Both the position numbers and the translations under genes were made by a program. A stretch of DNA of 32,304 bases from a virus. The notes beneath the pieces are model-generated. The model did no database searches, was not told the origin of the DNA, and saw only the letters and a program-made list of their open reading frames with translations. The stretch lies in IMG/VR virus record IMGVR_UViG_3300021407_000386, positions 1-32,304 of that record; one strand, given 5' to 3'. Each line of letters begins with the position of its first letter. The first letter of the stretch is position 1. Of the stretch, positions 8,434 to 31,176 are shown one piece after another.

Positions 8434-9363
8434 TCACCACACATCCGGCGCAATGGGCGCTCGCACGTCCTGCTGCGATGTCTGCTGCTGGAGCACGAGG
8501 TATTCTTGCCTCGCGAGCGCGAAGTACATCTGCGCCATCTGCTCGTCGCCTATAAGAGCACGAGACATCCGCGCCTCGGCCTCGTAGCGAATGAACGCTT
8601 CGGCGGTAGTCGTCCACATATTCGAGTCGGTCGATAGCTGCGCGAGCGGCGGCGCCGTTCTGTAGGACAACGTGACCGGATAGAGACCTGCCGGATAAGG
8701 CCACAGGTAGATTTGCTGTTGATACCACGCATACCACGAGGGGTAGGTTGCCGGAGGCGTAGGCCGGATCATGTCGTAATCGCGGAGTGCTGCGTAATCC
8801 AGCGGCTGCATCTCGATGCGCTGCGTCAGCTGCCACGTCACCTCCACCCGCGTGAACGCCACGAGGTCAATCGGCATCGTGAGCTGGTTGATGTTGTAGA
8901 CAGTCGATAGCTGGGTGTAGACGCCCACGTCGGTGGTGCCGTTGTTGGCCCAGATGATGCCGTTATCGTCCACCGTGCCCGCCGTTCCGGGTGCTGGAGG
9001 CGGCTGCTGATTCTGATTGTTCCCCGACGGCACCTGGAACACCGTGCTCGGCCACACCGGAGTTCCCGCTGGCGAGGTCGCGCCTGCGTTAAGAGCCACA
9101 AAGTAGCTGGGACTCCCGCCCGCAGGCGTCGCGATGATCGTCGTCCCCTGCGTGACGATAACGTTGTTGGCGTAGCTAAGTACGGCGGTGTTATCGGTGT
9201 CGGAAAAGAAAAAGGGCTTCCGCTGGAAAAACCGCATCGCGTCTTGCAGATAGGCGGGCGCCTGCGCTGCAAGATCAGGCCGGTTCAAATCATCGAGCAC
9301 ACGTTGGATCTGTTGCCCAAAGTTCCTGTTATCGACCTGTGTACTTTGCCACTGTTGGGCCAC
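8434..9363 (-). CDS. Head-to-tail adaptor (P22 gp4 / tail tubular A-like)
   Basis: 309 residues. The start is GTG at 9363 with a very good GAGGAG ribosome-binding site six bases upstream. The N-terminal helices (IQRVLDDLNRPDLAAQAPAY, then DAMRFFQRKPFFF) and the later RVEVTWQ, YPSWYAWYQQQIYLWPYPAG and PVTLSYRTAPPLAQLSTDSN segments match the adaptor family that forms a dodecameric ring under the portal. The C-terminal ARMSRALIGDEQMAQMYFAL region is the long helix of these proteins. A proline-glutamine insertion near residues 115-130 is low complexity. Its neighbours, the coat protein upstream and hub downstream, support the call. Confidence 0.8.
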   Translation of the reverse strand: MAQQWQSTQVDNRNFGQQIQRVLDDLNRPDLAAQAPAYLQDAMRFFQRKPFFFSDTDNTAVLSYANNVIVTQGTTIIATPAGGSPSYFVALNAGATSPAGTPVWPSTVFQVPSGNNQNQQPPPAPGTAGTVDDNGIIWANNGTTDVGVYTQLSTVYNINQLTMPIDLVAFTRVEVTWQLTQRIEMQPLDYAALRDYDMIRPTPPATYPSWYAWYQQQIYLWPYPAGLYPVTLSYRTAPPLAQLSTDSNMWTTTAEAFIRYEAEARMSRALIGDEQMAQMYFALARQEYLVLQQQTSQQDVRAPIAPDVW

Positions 9364-10383: not shown

Positions 10384-11472
10384 TTACTGCGCGTTCGTGG
10401 CGGCGGCGTTGAGTGTGTCGATGTCGAGTCCGTAGGTGTCGATTCCGGCCACGCCGAAGTCGGTCGAATTGAACTGCACCTTAACGAGGCCCCAGATGGC
10501 GCTCACGCCGATACCGATCTGGCGACCGTAGTCGCGTAGCTCTTCCAGCCACCGGAACTTCTGCGACTCGTCCTGCCCGCGTCCGAACGCCAAAACAGCC
10601 GCCTGAGCCCCAAGGCCCAGCGCCCGCTTGGTGTTCGCCACAGCGGCGCCCGCATTCGAGACCGAATTGGTCACGCGCGAATTCTCATGGAGCAGCACGC
10701 CGTGATACATACCCAGCGATTCCCAGAAGATCGGGTTGTCGCCAACGTCACCACCGGTCATGGCCGCTTTTTCGATGTCCAGCCATTGGCCGGTCGAGGT
10801 GTTCTGTCGCATGTCGGTGGTCTGCGACGGGTGCATCACGCCGATGAAAAGCTGCTTGCCGCCTACCTTCACCGGACGTATGCCCGAAGTGAGCGCCTTA
10901 GCCGACCGCACGAACGTGTCCCAATAGGTGATCTGGAACGTGTTGGTTGAGGTCAGGTTCGCTGCGTCAGTGATACCGGAAGGCAGAATCTGCCGCGTGA
11001 TCGCCACCGGACTCTGCAAGCCCGTGTAGTTCACGTTGGTCTGCGGGGTATACGACCCGAGCTGGTTGGCCGCGCCGTGATCAACACGAGCCGCGTACCA
11101 GTCCGCCAGCCGGTTGCGACCGATCTTTCTGCGATCGAACAGCACGCGCTGGTTGCTGATCGGCCCGACCAGCAGCACCGCGTGAGCGAGTTCCGATACC
11201 GTCAGCGCATCGCTGTAGGTGATCGGCGCCTCTTCGTTGCCGGTCAGCGTCTGCAAGTTCAGCACGCCAGCGCCTTGCAGCAACTGCGAGATGCCGAACG
11301 TAACCTGGTCGCCTGCATGCTTCTGCAAGTCGTCCAGAATCTGGATCGCTGAACTATCTTCCTTGGAGGCGATGCGCATGAAAAACGCGGTCTGCGCGAC
11401 CTGCGCCATCATTTGCTTCGCCCATCTTTTTACGGTAAGTGCGTCCCCTGTCTGGTAGACCCATTCGGCCAA
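10384..11472 (-). CDS. Major capsid protein, N4-gp56 family
   Basis: 362 residues. Family features are the N-terminal arm (TGDALTVKRWAKQMMAQVAQ), GDQVTFGISQLLQGAGV, the segment NEEAPITYSDALTVSELAHA, and RVLFDRRKIGRNRLADWYAA. The coat protein forms the icosahedral shell with an HK97-type fold. The best start is TTG at 11472: a GGGAG site lies eight bases upstream, and no ATG or GTG is found in frame near it. It has its own 197-bp leader with a promoter-like element and two inverted repeats. A probable scaffold gene upstream and decoration gene downstream agree with the call. Confidence 0.9.
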   Translation of the reverse strand: MAEWVYQTGDALTVKRWAKQMMAQVAQTAFFMRIASKEDSSAIQILDDLQKHAGDQVTFGISQLLQGAGVLNLQTLTGNEEAPITYSDALTVSELAHAVLLVGPISNQRVLFDRRKIGRNRLADWYAARVDHGAANQLGSYTPQTNVNYTGLQSPVAITRQILPSGITDAANLTSTNTFQITYWDTFVRSAKALTSGIRPVKVGGKQLFIGVMHPSQTTDMRQNTSTGQWLDIEKAAMTGGDVGDNPIFWESLGMYHGVLLHENSRVTNSVSNAGAAVANTKRALGLGAQAAVLAFGRGQDESQKFRWLEELRDYGRQIGIGVSAIWGLVKVQFNSTDFGVAGIDTYGLDIDTLNAAATNAQ

Positions 11473-12318: not shown

Positions 12319-13350
12319 CTATCGCACGTCGAGTGCTAATACCTTCTTGTTGAAATTCTTGTCCTTGATCGCTTCCAAATAGTCCGCATCGTCCATGTTC
12401 GCGATGTGCATGGCGAATGCCTGATCGTCCATCTGCTGCCACGGCTGCTGGGCCGGTTCCTGCGCGCTCTGGACCCGCCCCTGACCTTGAACGCGCTGTC
12501 CCGCCGCTATCTGGTCGAGCTTCACGTTGCCGTTGCCGTTCACCTTACCGTTGGTCGGCTTGTAGCCCCACTGCGTCGTCATGTTGGCAACGGTGGTCAC
12601 GAGGTCGGCTCCGTTTTGCGCTGCCGACGCGACCAGCGCATATTCTTCGTTGGCGACTATCTTGCGGGCGTTCTCTTCACTGTGACCGAGGCTCATCCAG
12701 AGCTTGGTCCGCTCACCACGGGCGAAGTCTACGCGGGCGTCCCAGTCGGGATGGCGGCTTCTGCCTGTGTTGGCGATCTGCTGAACGTAGCCTTGCATTT
12801 GCTGCTGCTGGGTCCAACCCTGAAGCTCCTGCGACCGCCCATTCACAAATTCAGTCAGCCGTGCAACTTCGGCGCGGGCTGCTTTGGCGTCTTCAACCGC
12901 GTCCCACGCACGGGCACCCGCGGGGTCTACGTCGGGGTCGGGGCGCTGTGCGGCACGCTCGGCTGCAGCGGCGGCTTGCTGTGCCCGCGTCTGCGCGTCG
13001 TTGGCGAGCTTCTGACGTTCCTCCAGCCGTGCCCACCGTTCGCGGGATTCGGACGCCTCTTTGCGAATCTGCTCCAGCTCGATGCGGGTACGGTTGCGCT
13101 CGTCCACCACTTCCGAGAAGCGGTCGTAAGGGACGACGCTCGGCTTCTTGCCCTTCTTGCCGCCTTCGGCTGTCTCAGCAGGCTCCGCAGTCTGCTCGGC
13201 GGGCTCGGTCTCTTCAGCATCAGGAACGGCTTGAACGGCAGGCTCGCCGCGCTCTTCGGCGGCGGCGGCAGCCTTTTCCTCGTCGGTTAGCGCGTCTCCG
13301 GTCTCTTCGAGCATCGGGTTGAAATTAGGTGCGGCTTTAGATTTCGGCAT
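12319..13350 (-). CDS. Probable capsid scaffolding protein
   Basis: 343 residues. The N-terminal third is Glu/Ala-rich and acidic, the middle (about 80-165) is a long charged coiled coil (RNRTRIELEQIRKEASESRE and onward), and the end is Gln-rich with a short helix-rich tail (DDQAFAMHIANMDDADYLEA). Composition, length and placement between the portal cluster and the capsid gene match scaffolds of P22/N4-type phages, which template the shell and leave before DNA packaging. A GGAGAAC ribosome-binding site precedes the ATG. Long open frames on the plus strand here are a by-product of its codon composition. Confidence 0.8.
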   Translation of the reverse strand: MPKSKAAPNFNPMLEETGDALTDEEKAAAAAEERGEPAVQAVPDAEETEPAEQTAEPAETAEGGKKGKKPSVVPYDRFSEVVDERNRTRIELEQIRKEASESRERWARLEERQKLANDAQTRAQQAAAAAERAAQRPDPDVDPAGARAWDAVEDAKAARAEVARLTEFVNGRSQELQGWTQQQQMQGYVQQIANTGRSRHPDWDARVDFARGERTKLWMSLGHSEENARKIVANEEYALVASAAQNGADLVTTVANMTTQWGYKPTNGKVNGNGNVKLDQIAAGQRVQGQGRVQSAQEPAQQPWQQMDDQAFAMHIANMDDADYLEAIKDKNFNKKVLALDVR

Positions 13351-13582
13351 GTTCTCCTCTTCCTTGTCCTCTCCCTTTCCACGGAAATTTTCTTACGTCT
13401 TCGTGCATCGCAGGCGACTGTGATTCAGCCACGCAGTATAAATATGCTTCTCCGTTCTCCGAGATCCAAACCAGTTTCAGACCTCCTGAAGGTCCAGCGA
13501 ACATGGGAGCCTCCCACGTACCGCTACGAGAAGTACATTCAAGAATTGCCCATCCCAATTCTCGCTCAAACTGTGACGGCAT
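13337..13582 (-). CDS. Hypothetical small protein
   Basis: 81 residues with a strong AGGAGAGG site before the ATG. It overlaps the ATP-grasp gene by 17 bases and the scaffold gene by 14, so all three are probably co-translated. The sequence (LKLVWISENGEAYLYCVAES) suggests a compact beta protein with a basic end (KGRGQGRGEH). No family recognised. Confidence 0.65.
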   Translation of the reverse strand: MPSQFERELGWAILECTSRSGTWEAPMFAGPSGGLKLVWISENGEAYLYCVAESQSPAMHEDVRKFPWKGRGQGRGEHAEI

Positions 13583-14852
13583 AATCCTCTCCTGCGAAAT
13601 TGCTCCAACGTATTCCGAGGCTTTCCCCCTCGGTTATTGTCTCCAATGCTTTGTGCAAGGCTCCGGAATCGTAGTTGATCCCCGTTCCCTTCACCGACTT
13701 CGCCACTTCCGACGCTTCGGCCACCGCCTCTTCCATCGTGTCGCCCAACCCGAGCGCCGCGCCCAGCTCCGGTATCTCGCTCATGCTCACCGCCCAGTCC
13801 ACACCGTCGATATTGCAGTGGCCGTGAATGGCGGTCCTATCAGGCCGGTCGATTTGAACGGCGATAGGCCGCTCCTCGAAGGTGGAAGAGCGGAGAATGA
13901 TCTGCGCTCCGTAGCGTGCTCGGAATTCCGGTTCTACTATTTCGCCGTTCGCGTAGCCCCACAGGATTTCACCGAGGTTGGCGATCATCTTGCTCTGCAA
14001 CTCCGAAGGAGGCGAGCCAAACCGGCACGTCGCATCAATGAAATAAGTGCCAATACCATTTTCGCGAGTCTCTGTAGAAAACGCACCGCGATAGTCGAGC
14101 GCTTTGAGGGCGGGCCTGAGTTTCTGCTGAGTACGACGGAGCCGAGGGGATAGATAGCCTGTGCTCGCAACGAAGGCTGAGTCCTTGACCTCGTAGCCGA
14201 AGAGGGAAACTTCGGGAAAATCACCGTCGGCACAAAAGGTGTCGAATCCGATTTCGACGCACTCGCCTTCGTCGTCCGCGATCGGCTCTTCGACGACAAA
14301 TTCAGCAAGTGACCCATATGGCCCCAACTTTAGCGACAGTTCATCGAGTATGCTACGCGATAGAATCGGCCCCTGATGCTCGAAGGTCTCCCCGTCTCCA
14401 CGAAACCACGATAACTTGACATAGAGACTGCTATCGGTCTGCAACATCCTCCGCAGGTTGTCTATACCGTGCACCCCCAGACCGTTAGCAGTCTGTATAT
14501 CGAGTCGTTTGCAGACTTCTTTCAGGAATCCGCGGTCCCTTTCGAGCCGGTCGGCGTCGCCGGAGCCGAAGACCGGCATTCCTCGTGCGCGCATGAATTT
14601 CTGTAATCCCGAGTATCCCACATCAGGAAAAACCAGAAGGTCGCAGCGATCAAGGTGATCAAATAGATCGTCGATCCGTTCAATTCCGTCCAAGCCAATA
14701 CCAGGAAGAAGATCCCGAGCGCGTCGGAAGCTAGCGTCAGAAGGAGTCCAATAGAGAACTTCGGCAAAGTCATCGACGACAGCCTCCGCGAGGTGGGTAT
14801 AGTCGCCACCGAGGTCGGCGAACAGGCAGACTTTGTTACTTAGCGCTGGCAT
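13566..14852 (-). CDS. ATP-grasp protein resembling phosphoribosylamine-glycine ligase (PurD-like)
   Basis: 428 residues, the usual length of PurD. GMPVFGSGDADRLERDRGF (91-109) matches the PurD stretch around IPVFGPS-x-A-A-LE-SK. Further ATP-grasp features are YVKLSW (144-149), FVVEEPI (185-191) and the magnesium-binding region STETRENGIGTYFIDATCRF (259-278, with Glu261 and Asp273). The C-terminus (LGDTMEEAVAEASEVAKSVKG) resembles the PurD C-terminal domain. The canonical N-terminal glycine-rich GREHA and the GPE-PL motifs are absent, so the substrate has probably changed. ATP-grasp enzymes join a carboxylate to an amine or thiol. It overlaps the glycosyltransferase gene by 17 bases, which suggests a joint role in modifying a virion or surface molecule. 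Confidence 0.75.
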   Translation of the reverse strand: MPALSNKVCLFADLGGDYTHLAEAVVDDFAEVLYWTPSDASFRRARDLLPGIGLDGIERIDDLFDHLDRCDLLVFPDVGYSGLQKFMRARGMPVFGSGDADRLERDRGFLKEVCKRLDIQTANGLGVHGIDNLRRMLQTDSSLYVKLSWFRGDGETFEHQGPILSRSILDELSLKLGPYGSLAEFVVEEPIADDEGECVEIGFDTFCADGDFPEVSLFGYEVKDSAFVASTGYLSPRLRRTQQKLRPALKALDYRGAFSTETRENGIGTYFIDATCRFGSPPSELQSKMIANLGEILWGYANGEIVEPEFRARYGAQIILRSSTFEERPIAVQIDRPDRTAIHGHCNIDGVDWAVSMSEIPELGAALGLGDTMEEAVAEASEVAKSVKGTGINYDSGALHKALETITEGESLGIRWSNFAGEDYAVTV

Positions 14853-15612
14853 GCTCCACTGCGCCGTTCTTCTGCTTCGGACCTATCACGCAGCCATCTT
14901 TGAACTCGTGCTTGATCCATTCTTCGGGATGCTCTTCGCGCAGCCACATCTCGTAGCTCAGCGCATGCTTCTTGATGTGCCCGACCTGAATTCCTGCGTG
15001 GCCGTAGATGGGGAACTTCGCCGCTCGCACCCGCCGGCAGAAACTCAAATCCTCACCGAGATGATGCGTCTGGTTGTCGTCGGCATTCCACGTCTCGTCG
15101 CGGCCGAACCACGTCCAATGATCCCTAGCGTGAATCACGGCTAGTTCTTCGAACACCGAGCGATGGATGATGCAGAAGCCCATGCCAATAGCGTCGAGCG
15201 CCTGCGGCTGTCCGGCGTCCGGCTCTACCTGCTTGACGGTGGTGTACTTGCCGTTCTTCGGATCGACAAACCAGATTGGGACAAGCCGCCCTGCGGCCAG
15301 CCGCCCGAAGTAGATACCGGACACGATAGGCCGCTCCACCGGATCTGCTACCTCGTACAGCGCATAGATCATCTCGGGTCGGAAGTGAATGTCGGTGTCA
15401 AGCGAGACCAGCCAATCATCGGTGGTCTTCAGAAACTCGCGCACCATGTTGTTGCGGTTTTCTTCGATATAGAGGCCGCGAATCTTCGCTTCGTGCTGCA
15501 CGAGGCCGTTGTGCTGCTTGTCGAAGATTTGGAGGTCGCGCAGGGAATCGACGAATTCCTCTTCGCGTGTGCCGTAGCAGTAGCCGATGCAGACGGTGCC
15601 CTGATTCTTCAT
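14836..15612 (-). CDS. GT-A fold glycosyltransferase (GT2-like)
   Basis: 258 residues. DDWLVSLDTDIHF carries the DxD motif (Asp72, Asp74) that binds a metal and a nucleotide sugar. RNNMVREFL before it, GMGFCIIHRSVFEEL in the acceptor region and the GEDLSFCRR segment, resembling the catalytic ED of GT2 enzymes, fit a GT-A fold. No membrane segment, so it acts in the cytoplasm. It overlaps the ATP-grasp gene and the upstream small gene (ATGA), so the set is one operon. Phage glycosyltransferases of this kind modify capsid or tail proteins, DNA or host sugars; the position between portal and scaffold favours a virion target (inference). Confidence 0.85.
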   Translation of the reverse strand: MKNQGTVCIGYCYGTREEEFVDSLRDLQIFDKQHNGLVQHEAKIRGLYIEENRNNMVREFLKTTDDWLVSLDTDIHFRPEMIYALYEVADPVERPIVSGIYFGRLAAGRLVPIWFVDPKNGKYTTVKQVEPDAGQPQALDAIGMGFCIIHRSVFEELAVIHARDHWTWFGRDETWNADDNQTHHLGEDLSFCRRVRAAKFPIYGHAGIQVGHIKKHALSYEMWLREEHPEEWIKHEFKDGCVIGPKQKNGAVEHASAK

Positions 15613-15860
15613 CGGCTCAAATGCTTTTTCATGTCTCGCATTATCTGCTTGGTAGCGGCGGCAAGGCGATCCACTTCTTCCTCACTCATGCAACTTGTAA
15701 AAGAGGCGTAGGGATTCCCATTGTCGTGTCGGACTTGCGTCAGGTGCACTTGGACATTGATCTCGCCACTATCAATTACACGAACGCCTCCCTTGAAGTC
15801 GGCACCTTCTACGTCAAAGGCTCGGTGTTGCCTGATTGTCAAATCGATACGCTCATTCAT
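15609..15860 (-). CDS. Hypothetical small protein
   Basis: 83 residues from ATG 15860, chosen because a perfect AAGGAG lies six bases upstream; an in-frame ATG at 15902 is a weaker alternative and a longer frame overlaps the previous gene. The first half is beta (VRVIDSGEINVQVHLTQVR) and the second helical (SEEEVDRLAAATKQIMRDMK). Its stop overlaps the glycosyltransferase start (ATGA). No family recognised. Confidence 0.65.
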   Translation of the reverse strand: MNERIDLTIRQHRAFDVEGADFKGGVRVIDSGEINVQVHLTQVRHDNGNPYASFTSCMSEEEVDRLAAATKQIMRDMKKHLSR

Positions 15861-15955
15861 AGCTTTCTCCTTGAAGTCCTTTTCGACCATTCGCGCAAAC
15901 ATTCCTTTGCCTTGTGGAAACGGCACACGCTCGTTCTTGAATGTGCCGTCAATCT

Positions 15956-16324
15956 TCACGACGTAACCGGATGCGGCTCCGTTGATTCCTTGGCATTCCA
16001 TCCGCAGCTGGGGCAGGTATTCATGGCCCCGATAGGCTCGCACTTCGCGGTGCTTTCGGGACGCGGCGGCGGCACGGGACGCGGTGGCTCGACCTTCGGC
16101 ATCACCTTCGGCCCTATCAACTCCAGCGGATGCGGCTCGGCGCCAGCGATAGGGTCACCGAAGATATAGCCGCAGCCCTCCACCTGACACGCCTGCCCCG
16201 CCGATGCGAGAACGGGTGGGTGGGTGGCGCGTTTCGCCGGATCGACAACGACCGGAGGCGGCTCTTCGATGGGCGGAGTTTCAAACATGGGGGTTTCTTC
16301 CGGCTTGACTTCCTCTTCTGACAT
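15956..16324 (-). CDS. Proline-rich zinc-ribbon-like protein
   Basis: 122 residues from ATG 16324, which has an ideal AAGGAG site at six bases; an in-frame ATG at 16369 adds 15 residues but has a weak site. The first 40 residues are acidic and Pro-rich. Two cysteine pairs (CQVEGCGYIF and CPSCGW) near residues 46-51 and 103-106 could bind one zinc ion, with a Pro-rich loop between them. One of several small Cys-pair proteins downstream of the portal gene. Function unknown. Confidence 0.6.
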   Translation of the reverse strand: MSEEEVKPEETPMFETPPIEEPPPVVVDPAKRATHPPVLASAGQACQVEGCGYIFGDPIAGAEPHPLELIGPKVMPKVEPPRPVPPPRPESTAKCEPIGAMNTCPSCGWNAKESTEPHPVTS

Positions 16325-17648: not shown

Positions 17649-18198
17649 TAGTTATTCCTTTGAGCGGATCGAACATCTTGGGTTCTTCGGCGGCGTTCGG
17701 ATGAATTACTATCTTGCCTTGCGGCGGCGGAAGTAGCGCGGCGTTGGGTTGCGGGACAACGGGCTTCTGCCTTGACTTAGGCGGAGCGGCATTGAACATT
17801 TGCGCCGCTATATTTTGTCCCTGCCGATCCTGCGCGGCACCACCGAGTTCGTATTGCCCGTGCACTTCGCAGAGCCAGCCGGTTTTCGTCTCATTCATCA
17901 CAACACCCTGCCGCCCGCAATAGATACACGGATTTTGCACTATGGGTGCTGGAATTGGTGGCGGCGGGTTGCCTGTGAGTAGCGTCGCCGTATCGTGCGT
18001 GCGTGAAACCTTGAAGCCTTCGGCGCGGAGCAACCGCGTCAGTTCTTCCAACTGCTCACCCACATATTCCAAGACGGCAACCTTACGCGCTTCGATGGCT
18101 GCCTGCTTCATCTGGTCAGTGGCGCGGGCGCGTATCTTCGACTTCACCGACTTGCGCCGACGACGGACGATCTTCAGTTTGGGTTCAGAGTCCGCCAT
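17590..18198 (-). CDS. Basic, Cys-motif protein after the portal
   Basis: 202 residues, overlapping the end of the portal gene by 14 bases. The N-terminus is very basic (KLKIVRRRRKSVKSKIRARA), followed by a helix, a Pro-rich loop (NPPPPIPAPIV) and CIYCGR ... CEVHG, which looks like a zinc-binding knuckle (Cys2-Cys-His). The C-terminal half is Gln/Pro-rich and acidic at the end. The basic head and the finger could bind nucleic acid. No named family. Confidence 0.7.
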   Translation of the reverse strand: MADSEPKLKIVRRRRKSVKSKIRARATDQMKQAAIEARKVAVLEYVGEQLEELTRLLRAEGFKVSRTHDTATLLTGNPPPPIPAPIVQNPCIYCGRQGVVMNETKTGWLCEVHGQYELGGAAQDRQGQNIAAQMFNAAPPKSRQKPVVPQPNAALLPPPQGKIVIHPNAAEEPKMFDPLKGITNGTVGVLGEDSDEAGDIGQ

Positions 18199-20182
18199 TG
18201 TCGTTCACCTGCGGTGGCCCCTGCATCTGCTGCTTGGCCTTTGCGATTCTGTCGTGTAACAGCTTTTGGTGATCCAAATTCTTTTGATGAGAAAGTTCAG
18301 AACTCTTTAGTAGCGTAGTGGACGTGAGTTCCGCAATATCGAGGTTCGACTTTCTGTCTATGGCCTTCGCCTCGGCGAGCGAGCGCTGCGTGTCGGCGTC
18401 CAACTTCTTGATCTTCGCCTGCGTCATGTTCGGATCTTCAGTCTTACCCTGCTTTTGCGGCTTCTGCGGCTGCTGACCGGCCTGCTGCGCCAACTCCTGC
18501 AACTCCGCCACGATCTGCGCGGGCAGCGGGCTGAACTTCATTGCTTTAAGCAGGAATTGTTGCCCGATAGGCGATTTCATCAGCGGTCCCGCTATTTGTA
18601 GCAAATCGGTCCAAATCTGCTGCTTGAGATTCGGGTTGTGACGAATCGAATCGTCCAGAATCATGTCGTACTGGTCTTGCGCGGGCAGTTCGGACTTTAA
18701 CAAGGGGATTGCCTTGGAGTTGAACTGCCCCCCGACGCGGACCAACTGCCCGTAGCTCCAATACTCTCGGACGAAATCGAGCACGGTGGTGAACTGCTGC
18801 TTGCGGAATCGGGAAATGTTGTCCCAGAACCAGCCGAGAATAATCAGACCACCCTGAACACGGGCACCGATAGTCGGTCCCGTAGATTCGCCTGTCGCGA
18901 TGCCGAGCATTTCGTCGCTCACGCCGCTGATCCGCGACATCGAAGTCTTCGCTTCCTGAAAGAGCATCGGCGGCACTTGCGAGATTTGCGTTGGTTGTCG
19001 CTGCACGATGTCGGTTGCGATAGTCGCTTCCGGATTTACTTCAATCCAGCTGTCGGGCTTCGCGTATTGGTCCTTAGCTGAATTCACGTCAGCAAAAGTT
19101 CCCGTCTTGAAGAACACGCCGCCTTTCGCGTTTGTGATGTACTGAGTCACCAACGACGAGATGGCCTTGTTCATCGTGTTCTGCGGGTCCTTCAGAGACC
19201 GCACGATGCCGTACCAGGTTTTCTTGACTTCGTCGTACTGACCCGTGCAGCAATGGAACGACCACTGCCCCGGCAACACGACTTCATCTTCGAGCACGAC
19301 GCCTAGCGACACGTAGACTTGCTTGTAGAGCGGTTTGAGTTGGCGCACCGCCTTGGGCATCGGCTGGCCCGCGAGCTGGTTGCGCTTTTCGAGCGCGCCC
19401 CATTCGTCTTCGGTGAGAGTTTTCAGTCCTTGCGGGTCTTGCGGGTCTGCGATTCTCCAGATAGGCACCATGTCGCGCCACTGGTACTGGATCACCGAGA
19501 GAGAATTATTTACGTCGCTACGCTGGCCGACCTGTGGGTTAGCCTGCTCGTTCGCGCGAGAGTAGTAAGGCGTGACGAGTTCGTACTTGTTTACGTCGTT
19601 CTCTTCGTAGTAGACGGCGGCTTCGTCCACCTTCTCGATCATGCCGGGGAAGCGCTTCTTGAAATCTCTTCGGGACCAATCCTTCTTGCGCGCACGCCAC
19701 TTCGAGTCGCCGAGATTTTCCTGCGTTGCCTTCGTATCCCAATACATTTCTTCGTAGGGGATTCGGCGAACGACGATTCTCCCGTCGGGGTCGTCATCGT
19801 AACTGGTGCTCGTTTCGCCCCAGCCCATACCAACGACTGCCGTGTCCTTGAAGATGCCAGAATCTTCCATCTCGCCGTCGCACATATCCATCGCGGTCGC
19901 TACTGCTTCGCTCGCGAGGTCGCCAGCGGCGTCGTGAATTATGTCTGAATCGATCTGGCGGGAGACGGCGTGAACGTCCTGCCGGTTCAATCGTTCAAGG
20001 CCAGAGATGGCGTCTATCTTGTCGCCGATTTCGTTGAAGACGAGCGCAGGACGGCGAAGCTGCTCCATCCGCATGCGGTCGAGGTCGGGCCACTGGTGCC
20101 CGTGATAGTAACGCGAGTCTTCTTTAGCGGAGTTGCGAAACGTGTTGACACCAGCGCCCGAAGACGCCATGTCGCGCATCAC
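18185..20182 (-). CDS. Portal protein (P22-like)
   Basis: 665 residues from the first standard start (GTG 20182, then ATG 20179). Family features are YYHGHQWPDLDRMRMEQL followed by RPALVFNEIGDKIDAISGLE, then VVRRIPYEEMYWDT, and the RSLKDPQNTMNKAISSLVTQ helix, all typical of P22-type portals. The dodecameric portal forms the DNA channel at one vertex and docks terminase and adaptor. The C-terminal 130 residues are Gln/Lys-rich coiled coil. The frame is open a further 43 codons upstream to the previous stop, with coding-like composition and a strong ribosome-binding site before an ATC codon, so the true start may lie at 20299. Confidence 0.9.
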   Translation of the reverse strand: MMRDMASSGAGVNTFRNSAKEDSRYYHGHQWPDLDRMRMEQLRRPALVFNEIGDKIDAISGLERLNRQDVHAVSRQIDSDIIHDAAGDLASEAVATAMDMCDGEMEDSGIFKDTAVVGMGWGETSTSYDDDPDGRIVVRRIPYEEMYWDTKATQENLGDSKWRARKKDWSRRDFKKRFPGMIEKVDEAAVYYEENDVNKYELVTPYYSRANEQANPQVGQRSDVNNSLSVIQYQWRDMVPIWRIADPQDPQGLKTLTEDEWGALEKRNQLAGQPMPKAVRQLKPLYKQVYVSLGVVLEDEVVLPGQWSFHCCTGQYDEVKKTWYGIVRSLKDPQNTMNKAISSLVTQYITNAKGGVFFKTGTFADVNSAKDQYAKPDSWIEVNPEATIATDIVQRQPTQISQVPPMLFQEAKTSMSRISGVSDEMLGIATGESTGPTIGARVQGGLIILGWFWDNISRFRKQQFTTVLDFVREYWSYGQLVRVGGQFNSKAIPLLKSELPAQDQYDMILDDSIRHNPNLKQQIWTDLLQIAGPLMKSPIGQQFLLKAMKFSPLPAQIVAELQELAQQAGQQPQKPQKQGKTEDPNMTQAKIKKLDADTQRSLAEAKAIDRKSNLDIAELTSTTLLKSSELSHQKNLDHQKLLHDRIAKAKQQMQGPPQVNDNGGL

Positions 20183-29017: not shown

Positions 29018-29584
29018 TCACTTCGCCCACGCGCTGCCGATGGTTTCCTTACGCGCCCTTTCAGCGTCTCTCTCGTAATCCATCGGTTCAACATCGACGG
29101 TCGCCTGCGCATCTTCGGAAACCGCAACTTCGCGCTTCGTGAACAATTTGCGCCACCACGATTTCTTCGCTTGCGTTCTCTCGGCGCGTAACTGCCTCAC
29201 TTCGTCCGTGAGATATTGCATCTGCCGTTTCAAGTCGGTGAGATTCGCCGCAAGCGGTCCTACCTTTTGCAATTCCCGAACGACTGTCTCAGTACCCGCG
29301 ACGAGGTGCGCAAACTTGGAGTCGTCGCGCGTCATCGCGCCCGCCATCTGGCTCATCTGCTCGGTCATGTGCGTAAAGAACACGGGCCACGCATCGTTGA
29401 GCGAGCCGCACTTGCGCAACTCGACTATTGCCCTGCGCGTCTCGAACGGAGTCTGGGCGGACAAATCGCGCGTCTCAGCCCATACGTGATTGACTTCTTC
29501 CTGACTGACCTCGCCGCGTTCGATGCGGAGCGCCAGAGCCTTGTCGGGATGAAGTTCTACCAATTCGTTTATTCGCTCAGCCAT
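29018..29584 (-). CDS. Coiled-coil protein next to the terminase
   Basis: 188 residues with an ideal GGAGG site six bases before the ATG, overlapping the terminase end by 16 bases. The N-terminal half is helical with a possible winged or helix-turn-helix shape; residues about 108-140 form a coiled coil (NLTDLKRQMQYLTDEVRQLR), followed by a Lys/Trp-rich patch (KKSWWRKLFTKR) that could touch membrane or DNA. Function unknown. Confidence 0.7.
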   Translation of the reverse strand: MAERINELVELHPDKALALRIERGEVSQEEVNHVWAETRDLSAQTPFETRRAIVELRKCGSLNDAWPVFFTHMTEQMSQMAGAMTRDDSKFAHLVAGTETVVRELQKVGPLAANLTDLKRQMQYLTDEVRQLRAERTQAKKSWWRKLFTKREVAVSEDAQATVDVEPMDYERDAERARKETIGSAWAK

Positions 29585-31176
29585 GAACCGCCTCCGCCTT
29601 CATAGTCACTGTCGCCAAACTTCCGCGAACCTTCGCCTTGTGCATAACTTCGCGGATAGACAATGTTCAACTCAGGGTCTTTGAGCAGCGCCATCGAATC
29701 GAGTCCGTCCTTGTATCGCGTAAACGGGAACGGCGTGTATTCCTTCTCAATGAAGTATTCGATCAAGTCGATTTGTTTACCACTCTTCTGCGTGAACTTG
29801 ATGCCGCTCTCCGGGAGAAGAATCAAGCCGCCACGGAACTCAGGCACCAGCCGCTCGTAAATCTTGTTGTCCTTTTTCATCTGATTGCTGCCGAGCGGAA
29901 TGATCGTGAAGCGGAAATTCTCTCGGTCCATCCGTTCCTTCAGGTAGTCCACGTCGGCTTGCATGGCGAATTTCTCGTAACCAACCTTCAGCACCGAATC
30001 GTACTCGCGCATGAGTCGGAACAGGTGGTCTCCGCGCTCGGACAGATTCATCTTGTCCAGCGCGCCGTCGAGTATGTACTTGCGCTTGTCGAAGTTGAGA
30101 CCGATCACCCACATGGCGCATTGCGAATCGGTCTTGATGCTGTCGCCCGCCGGATCGACGACGATATACTTGTTGAGGCTGCGGATGTTGGGGATCGTCT
30201 TGTAGCGCTGGAGCCACTCGACACGGAAGCCTGATTCCTTGGTGGCTTCGGTTGGGTCAAGCAGGATTTGCATGGCGAACGTTCTGGGACTCATCGCCTG
30301 CTTCTTTTTCGATAAGCCCTCTTCCGAGAGCAGGAGGCTCAGCCCGTTGGCGACGATAGGACGTTTCCGCACGGTGCCGAACTTGCGTTCCATCATGACG
30401 TGGTAGGTATCACCTTCGTCGTAGAAGGTGCCTGCCACCCTGAACTTGATGGGGTCCGTCGCGGAAAGATTCAGCGACTGCTCCCACATCTTCGTCACCT
30501 TGTCGATCATGTCGGGACCGGTAACGGCGCGCTCTTCGATCACGTCGTCGTAAATCAGATGGCTGAAATGTTTTGAGGTCGGCTGTCCGTCCGTGAGGCC
30601 CCACGCTTCCACAGTCGATTCCTTGGGGTTGCCCTTGCGCTTGACGATAATGCCGTCGTCTTCGCTCCACTTCGATGCTTCCAGCTTAGGCTGTTCGTAG
30701 AGAATGTCGGGGAAGAGTTTTACGAGAATGTCGTTCTTCTCGAATTCGCTTTTGATCTGACGGAGAAACTGCTTCGCTATCGGTCGCGTGTGCGAGAAGA
30801 TGCCGAACGTCACTTCGGGGTCGATGAGAATATCCTGAATCGTCTTCCCGTAGGTGATGATGGTGGACTTGCCGCCGCCCCTGCTCCAGAAATCCAGATG
30901 GCAGTCAGGGTCCTGCTGCACCTCAGCGCATCTGTCGAAGTACCACTGGTGTTGAAGGAACGTGGCGTTGAGCAGATGCACCAGCAGGAAGAACAGGTCG
31001 TTGCGGGCGAGCCAGCGGAGATGGTCGATGCGGCGGTCCTGTGGACACTTCTGGACGGTCTCGGCCCATAAAGATGCTTCGTCGATGGAGCGCGAGCGGG
31101 CAAGTGGTGGATGCGAGGCACAGGCGCCAGCGCGAAGTACGGAGTCGCGGAGTTCGCTGATGGGGTCACGCGGCAT
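29569..31176 (-). CDS. terL: Terminase large subunit
   Basis: 535 residues. The ATPase has Walker A at 98-105 (SRGGGKST), Walker B at 206-215 (HLIYDDVIEE) and a coupling-motif-like GTFYDEGD near 249. The RNase H-like nuclease has Asp341 in VVDPAGD, Glu401 in VGYEKFAM and Asp490/Asp493 in YKDGLDSMALL as likely metal ligands. The enzyme packs DNA through the portal and cuts it. The ATG overlaps the upstream stop (TAATG). The set of motifs is complete, so the enzyme is probably active. Confidence 0.95.
   Translation of the reverse strand: MPRDPISELRDSVLRAGACASHPPLARSRSIDEASLWAETVQKCPQDRRIDHLRWLARNDLFFLLVHLLNATFLQHQWYFDRCAEVQQDPDCHLDFWSRGGGKSTIITYGKTIQDILIDPEVTFGIFSHTRPIAKQFLRQIKSEFEKNDILVKLFPDILYEQPKLEASKWSEDDGIIVKRKGNPKESTVEAWGLTDGQPTSKHFSHLIYDDVIEERAVTGPDMIDKVTKMWEQSLNLSATDPIKFRVAGTFYDEGDTYHVMMERKFGTVRKRPIVANGLSLLLSEEGLSKKKQAMSPRTFAMQILLDPTEATKESGFRVEWLQRYKTIPNIRSLNKYIVVDPAGDSIKTDSQCAMWVIGLNFDKRKYILDGALDKMNLSERGDHLFRLMREYDSVLKVGYEKFAMQADVDYLKERMDRENFRFTIIPLGSNQMKKDNKIYERLVPEFRGGLILLPESGIKFTQKSGKQIDLIEYFIEKEYTPFPFTRYKDGLDSMALLKDPELNIVYPRSYAQGEGSRKFGDSDYEGGGGSWLSE

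Follow-up and report, generated by a model that had tools for sequence, protein, structure and literature searches.

The window, that is, the whole stretch of 32,304 bases taken from an IMG/VR record, carries a head module on its minus strand in the order putative large terminase (followed after an interval by) portal, small ORFs, glycosyltransferase (GT), ATP-grasp protein, an 81-aa ORF, a scaffold-like ORF and major capsid protein (MCP) (Table 1). An earlier sequence-only reading had proposed the ATP-grasp and GT genes at this spot, and both ORFs were confirmed, as was the length of the former. The two had also been described as fused by overlap; the overlap is present, but the reading frames differ and these are two genes, not a fusion. 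Their placement between portal and scaffold holds, the portal being identified by PF16510 and the scaffold-like ORF by position and composition. Neither the scaffold-like ORF nor the 81-aa ORF had a family match in Pfam or PHROGs, and the latter had no tblastn match in the other loci; the 144-aa ORF on the upstream side of GT had no Pfam or PHROG match above cut-off.

Table 1. Features of the window and examples of the HExxE protein in related loci
Feature	Coordinates	Strand	Basis
SU10-type head-tail adaptor	8434-9363		PF24175, 1.4e-10
Major capsid protein (MCP)	10384..11472	-	PF13252 8.9e-55, phrog_334
Scaffold-like protein, 343 aa	12319..13350	-	position and composition; homologue 3' of ATP-grasp in close relatives
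81-aa ORF, between ATP-grasp and scaffold	13337..13582	-	ORF list
PurD-clade ATP-grasp protein (probable ligase), 428 aa	13566..14852	-	ORF list; 67 distinct relatives; AF2 model; PurD fold
GT end/ATP-grasp start overlap, 17 nt, different frames	14836..14852	-	ORF coordinates
GT-A-type glycosyltransferase, 258 aa, DxD at 72-74	14836..15612	-	phrog_34859 1.3e-23; Pfam GTs below cut-off
144-aa ORF, adjoins GT on upstream side	15609..16043	-	ORF list
Portal protein	18185..20182	-	PF16510 1.7e-72, phrog_156
Putative large terminase	29569..31176	-	position and order; no Pfam match
HExxE protein, examples	L034:5114-5491, L035:7588-7962, L037:7588-7962		also in loci L054-L133

In the closest relative (L001), the order GT, ATP-grasp, scaffold is kept with a GT/ATP-grasp overlap of 4 nt, and the ATP-grasp protein is 82% identical to that of the window. 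Comparison of the two (NG86; rough values, with dS high) gave dN/dS of about 0.11 for ATP-grasp, about 0.21 for GT, 0.14 for portal and 0.05 for MCP, and the first two values indicate that both are real genes. The assignment of the second gene as a DxD glycosyltransferase was borne out by D72-T-D74 and the phrog_34859 match, which place it in the GT-A class; a profile of the protein gave chance matches only against PDB sequences.

A PurD-like fold with a changed active site

As a single query, the ATP-grasp protein matched no Pfam or PHROG family, and it scored 25.1 bits against the NCBIfam purD model (TIGR00877), for which the cut-off is 288. That model was matched by 19 of 29 family members (best E 2.1e-9), and the profile of these 29 sequences (alignment A8) found PurD best by far among PDB sequences (2yw2, 1.3e-13; PurK, E 0.05; biotin carboxylase, 0.66). 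An AF2 model built from A8 reached a pLDDT of 91.6 and a pTM of 0.91 (an alignment of 5 sequences gave a pLDDT of 46). Its top Foldseek match is again 2yw2 (E 5.7e-21, TM 0.73), and VIA-align gave Z scores of 31.1 and 31.0 to PurD across residues 5-407 (PDB 2yw2 and 3lp8; 371 aligned residues at an rmsd of 2.9 for 2yw2). PurT, PurK and biotin carboxylase share the ATP-grasp fold but score lower (24.8, about 24 and about 22, respectively), with no profile match at E<=0.001. A search of BFVD found no close structure (best TM 0.48). Thus the superfamily fold spans the whole protein, and the proposed PurD-like core is upheld by profile, fold and residue comparisons. The suggestion that canonical N-terminal motifs are lacking is right for the sequence but not for the domain, since the model can be superposed on PurD from residue 5-7 onwards; the domain is there without its PurD motif.

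In a PurD of 423 residues, ATP is contacted by Lys103, Lys143, Glu185, Glu192 and Lys214, and glycine by Asp212, Arg287 and Glu292 (PMC8880213); by count, these numbers fit the 2yw2 chain in the HMMER alignment. This alignment pairs Lys103 with R107, Lys143 with K146, Arg287 with R277, Glu292 with P282, and the metal pair E283-x-N285 with D273-x-T275. The middle region lies outside it, and E200, E221 and K223 were placed by spacing from a DG turn shared with E. coli PurD; on this placement, Asp212 and Lys214 would correspond to E221 and K223. At 14-18% identity to PurD, the phage enzyme retains the ATP-binding Lys143 and Lys214 as well as Arg287, has Arg or Lys for Lys103 and Glu for Asp212, replaces Glu292 with P, S or A, and presents D-x-T where PurD has E-x-N as Mg ligands. 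Among 67 distinct sequences of at least 300 aa, R107 (R/K), D273 (D/E) and R277 are conserved in 100%, E200 in 94%, E221 and K223 in 91%, E261 in 90% and K146 in 88%, so that the ATP and Mg residues expected of the superfamily are kept at 88-100%. Conversely, position 282, that of the glycine-binding Glu292, is never E (most often P, 43; S, 9; A, 7; V, 3; I, 2). By inspection, neither GGREHA nor NTGGMG of E. coli PurD has a counterpart in A8. The phage enzyme also has a conserved E261-x-R263 where PurD has G-L-M; in E. coli PurK and AccC, too, a Glu precedes the metal acid by 12 residues, as E261 does D273.

The active-site comparison thus did not find the full PurD substrate set, in keeping with the earlier suggestion of a PurD-like protein that is not a purine gene. 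An ordinary purine auxiliary metabolic gene encoding a true PurD would fit the profile and fold results, in which PurD is the closest known family, and 'purD' has been reported as a viral auxiliary metabolic gene (PMC11360552, PMC11097641), but the TIGR00877 score, the loss of the glycine Glu and of NTGGMG and GGREHA, and the lack of purM and purN in all 30 ATP-grasp records (many of them fragments) argue for a PurD-clade ligase and make a purine gene very improbable. Some of the viral genes called 'purD' may likewise not be purine genes. A catalytically dead fold that serves as a structural or assembly factor would suit the late head position and a glycine loop, RGDxET, unlike that of PurD; retention of the ATP and metal residues across 67 divergent sequences speaks against it, and we think it hardly likely. 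From sequence and model, it is highly likely that the phage protein is a member of the PurD clade other than PurD itself and probably an active ligase. Conservation of R277 and E221 suggests that an amino acid or similar molecule may still be bound, and a different reaction partner is suggested by the missing Glu292 and phosphoribosylamine motifs.

Two other groups of phage ATP-grasp enzymes were compared. The R2K clade of phages and CDC123 is predicted to modify proteins (PMC4431377); it retains an ExR motif where the phage enzyme, in a strand assigned by eye, has E200-x-G202, it is linked to host take-over and not to a late head position, and no R2K Pfam family matched at E<=5 among the 29 members. 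LUZ24-like phages also encode an ATP-grasp enzyme, in a set with an amidoligase and an amidotransferase (PMC3890496), but that ATP-grasp protein has about 291 aa, different companions and a place in the early region.

Head modules and co-divergence

The presence of a modification-type enzyme in a head module had been pointed out as unexpected, and it proved to be conserved there across divergent phages. To our knowledge, head assembly does not normally involve enzymes that form C-N bonds. Group 1 comprises phages with the capsid type of the window (MCP 63-96% identical; window, L001, L008-L012, L017, L021-L024, L028 and L029, with some contigs present twice under different locus numbers and with L008, L009, L023 and L029 being cut). 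The ATP-grasp gene is found in every group-1 locus that covers the spot, and the next recognised gene is the scaffold homologue. In group 2 (L027, L030-L038, L042 and L045), it lies 3' of a gene of about 750 aa, directly or after a gene for a HExxE protein, and, in contigs that extend far enough, upstream of a presumed scaffold gene and a presumed capsid gene. The 750-aa gene, the presumed portal, comes after a terminase-like gene in some contigs. These group-2 names come from position and motifs read by eye, with no support from Pfam, PHROGs or hhalign, and hhalign did not connect the portal, scaffold or capsid clusters of one group with those of the other. Outside both groups, the gene 5' of ATP-grasp matches a PHROG portal in L040 (E 3.9e-4) and L043 (2.4e-10). 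In L025, L039, L041 and L046, the neighbours are ejection-type or uncharacterised large genes and not a scaffold; for instance, a gene for a DNA-ejection protein (phrog_598, 2.2e-27) lies upstream of the one in L025. Read from its first start, the L025 ORF itself (L025:7626-9245) encodes 539 aa, which adds about 120 residues at the N-terminus; it has no Pfam match.

ATP-grasp distances track those of the group-1 head genes (portal, r 0.85; MCP, r 0.81; scaffold, r 0.86; p 0.0002 each, 9-11 phages), and in group 2 they follow those of the presumed portal (r 0.63, p 0.005). Constant place and co-divergence fit an inherited core gene better than a passing cargo gene. More distant capsid relatives (RHph_Y1_10, MW202512) gave no ATP-grasp match, which indicates that this capsid type does not generally require the enzyme.

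Companion genes and proposed reaction

The sequence-only reading had treated ATP-grasp and GT as a functional pair. The comparison does not support this pairing: the phrog_34859 family occurs in 6 of the 30 ATP-grasp records, far away in one of them, and GT adjoins ATP-grasp only in the window and L001, so that the two genes rarely occur together. In L010, L011 and L017, GT lies just 3' of the capsid gene. A weaker form of the claim stands, in that modification genes lie near the group-2 presumed portals. Genes of GT-like, methyltransferase or radical-SAM type are found upstream of the presumed portal in L027, L032, L035-L037 and L042, including GT9-, GT2- and Anp1-like genes, CmcI-type and C-methyltransferases, and a radical-SAM enzyme; L043 carries a GT2-like gene. 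In L042 (2432-5201), a radical-SAM enzyme and a deoxysugar-type C-methyltransferase adjoin the presumed portal on its upstream side. These group-2 genes hint at sugar chemistry close to the head. GTs with predicted virion glycosylation and a suggested capsid target have been described, for example in mycobacteriophage Maravista, and the abstract of that report names no ATP-grasp partner (PMC11256854).

ATP-grasp and GT could still act jointly to decorate a virion protein or a surface glycan with a sugar linked through an amino acid or peptide. The overlap in the window and L001, the same GT family 3' of the capsid gene in three loci and the modification genes of group 2 are consistent with this, but the family went undetected in most ATP-grasp records, and the records of L012 and L024 (59-63 kb) have no PF00535, PF13704 or phrog_34859 match. 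Joint action is thus unlikely, and the best reading of GT in the window is an optional accessory to ATP-grasp.

The commoner partner is the HExxE protein, which has about 125 aa with invariant H48-E49-x-x-E52, D70, H97 and E104 and is a neighbour of ATP-grasp in many loci of group 2 and elsewhere. It occurs in 17 of the 30 ATP-grasp records, including that of L001, where an ORF resembling the putative terminase of the window lies directly 3' of it; the window gave no match. The protein has no Pfam or PHROG relative, and a PDB profile search gave chance matches only. It is common in uncultured phages (268 contig hits). A bait search recovered 80 loci, 61 with an ATP-grasp match within 4 kb, a proportion biased upwards by a bait built from ATP-grasp loci and a list ranked by similarity to it. 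An obligate partnership was rejected, as 19 of the 80 loci have no detectable ATP-grasp; the protein also occurs, without ATP-grasp, beside terminase-, ParB-, MazG- or polymerase-like genes.

Our main reading, with a probability of roughly 0.5, is that the gene belongs to the core of the late head module and represents a phage-specific branch of PurD-clade ATP-grasp enzymes, whose product would act as a C-N ligase on a virion component. The enzyme would bind Mg-ATP and convert a carboxylate into an acyl-phosphate, the substrate probably being an amino acid or a small acid of that kind; transfer of the acyl group to an amine would then form a C-N bond. Glycinamide ribonucleotide would not be made. 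The acceptor would most likely be a virion component, either a head protein or a glycan that it carries. We infer this target from the constant late position, for which it is the most economical, although a place in the late operon does not prove it. A narrower form, in which the PurD-derived ligase attaches a carboxylate such as an amino acid to portal, scaffold or capsid protein as an inherited assembly step in several unrelated phage lineages, often together with the HExxE protein, is possible and is put forward tentatively.

PurD, PurT and PurK act on small molecules, and the phage enzyme might do the same, producing a modified nucleotide, a polyamine conjugate or a counter-defence metabolite, with its late position incidental. 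The LUZ24-like set (PMC3890496) and the ParB-, MazG- and polymerase-like neighbours of the HExxE protein are in line with such a role, whereas the constant head-module location and the co-divergence with head proteins are not, and the LUZ24 set sits in the early region; we hold a small-molecule ligase to be doubtful. The kept active site, the portal and scaffold neighbours in unrelated head modules and the in-step divergence together point to an undescribed covalent virion chemistry.

Family extent and insertions

In all, 67 distinct ATP-grasp sequences were collected from IMG/VR, and scans of viral contigs gave 32 loci with the gene; nearly all are metagenomic fragments. The gene is carried by a large number of uncultured tailed phages. 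A tblastn search with four main-group members had no match in 50,697 phage records, and two scans of bacterial genomes found no relative, with two short patterns each and hence a weak test of absence from bacteria. The family is phage-only in the sense of what was found, collections other than IMG/VR having been probed with single sequences or short patterns. Seven of the 67 sequences (L093, L104, L117 and others) form a divergent subgroup that differs at several active-site positions, and without them the main group is almost uniform there. The subgroup (L104 and others) retains a GPNTGCAG loop resembling that of PurD. A tblastn search with one of its members matched MW202796 and, in other records, genes annotated as or likely to be bacterial PurD. 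The relative in the complete phage record MW202796.1 (42386-43438) is unannotated. This second PurD-like phage subgroup, which with its GPNTGCAG-type loop is nearer PurD, is seen in L079, L080, L085, L093, L104 and L117, and it is also paired with the HExxE protein.

Mobile elements enter the ATP-grasp gene at two sites. In L010 (181-2000) and L011 (6309-8128), an HNH_3 endonuclease ORF lies at the 5' end; its start copies the first ATP-grasp residues (MTDLSKKTVLIWD / FWD) and a complete ATP-grasp gene follows, so that it is a homing-type insertion. In L026 (6567-8963), a LAGLIDADG intein splits the protein exactly at the conserved RGD/SET loop, between D and S (PF14528, 1.7e-5; PF14890 only 0.003, below its cut-off). 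A pseudopilin-like ORF upstream in L026, DUF1559-like by eye, hints at a planctomycete host.
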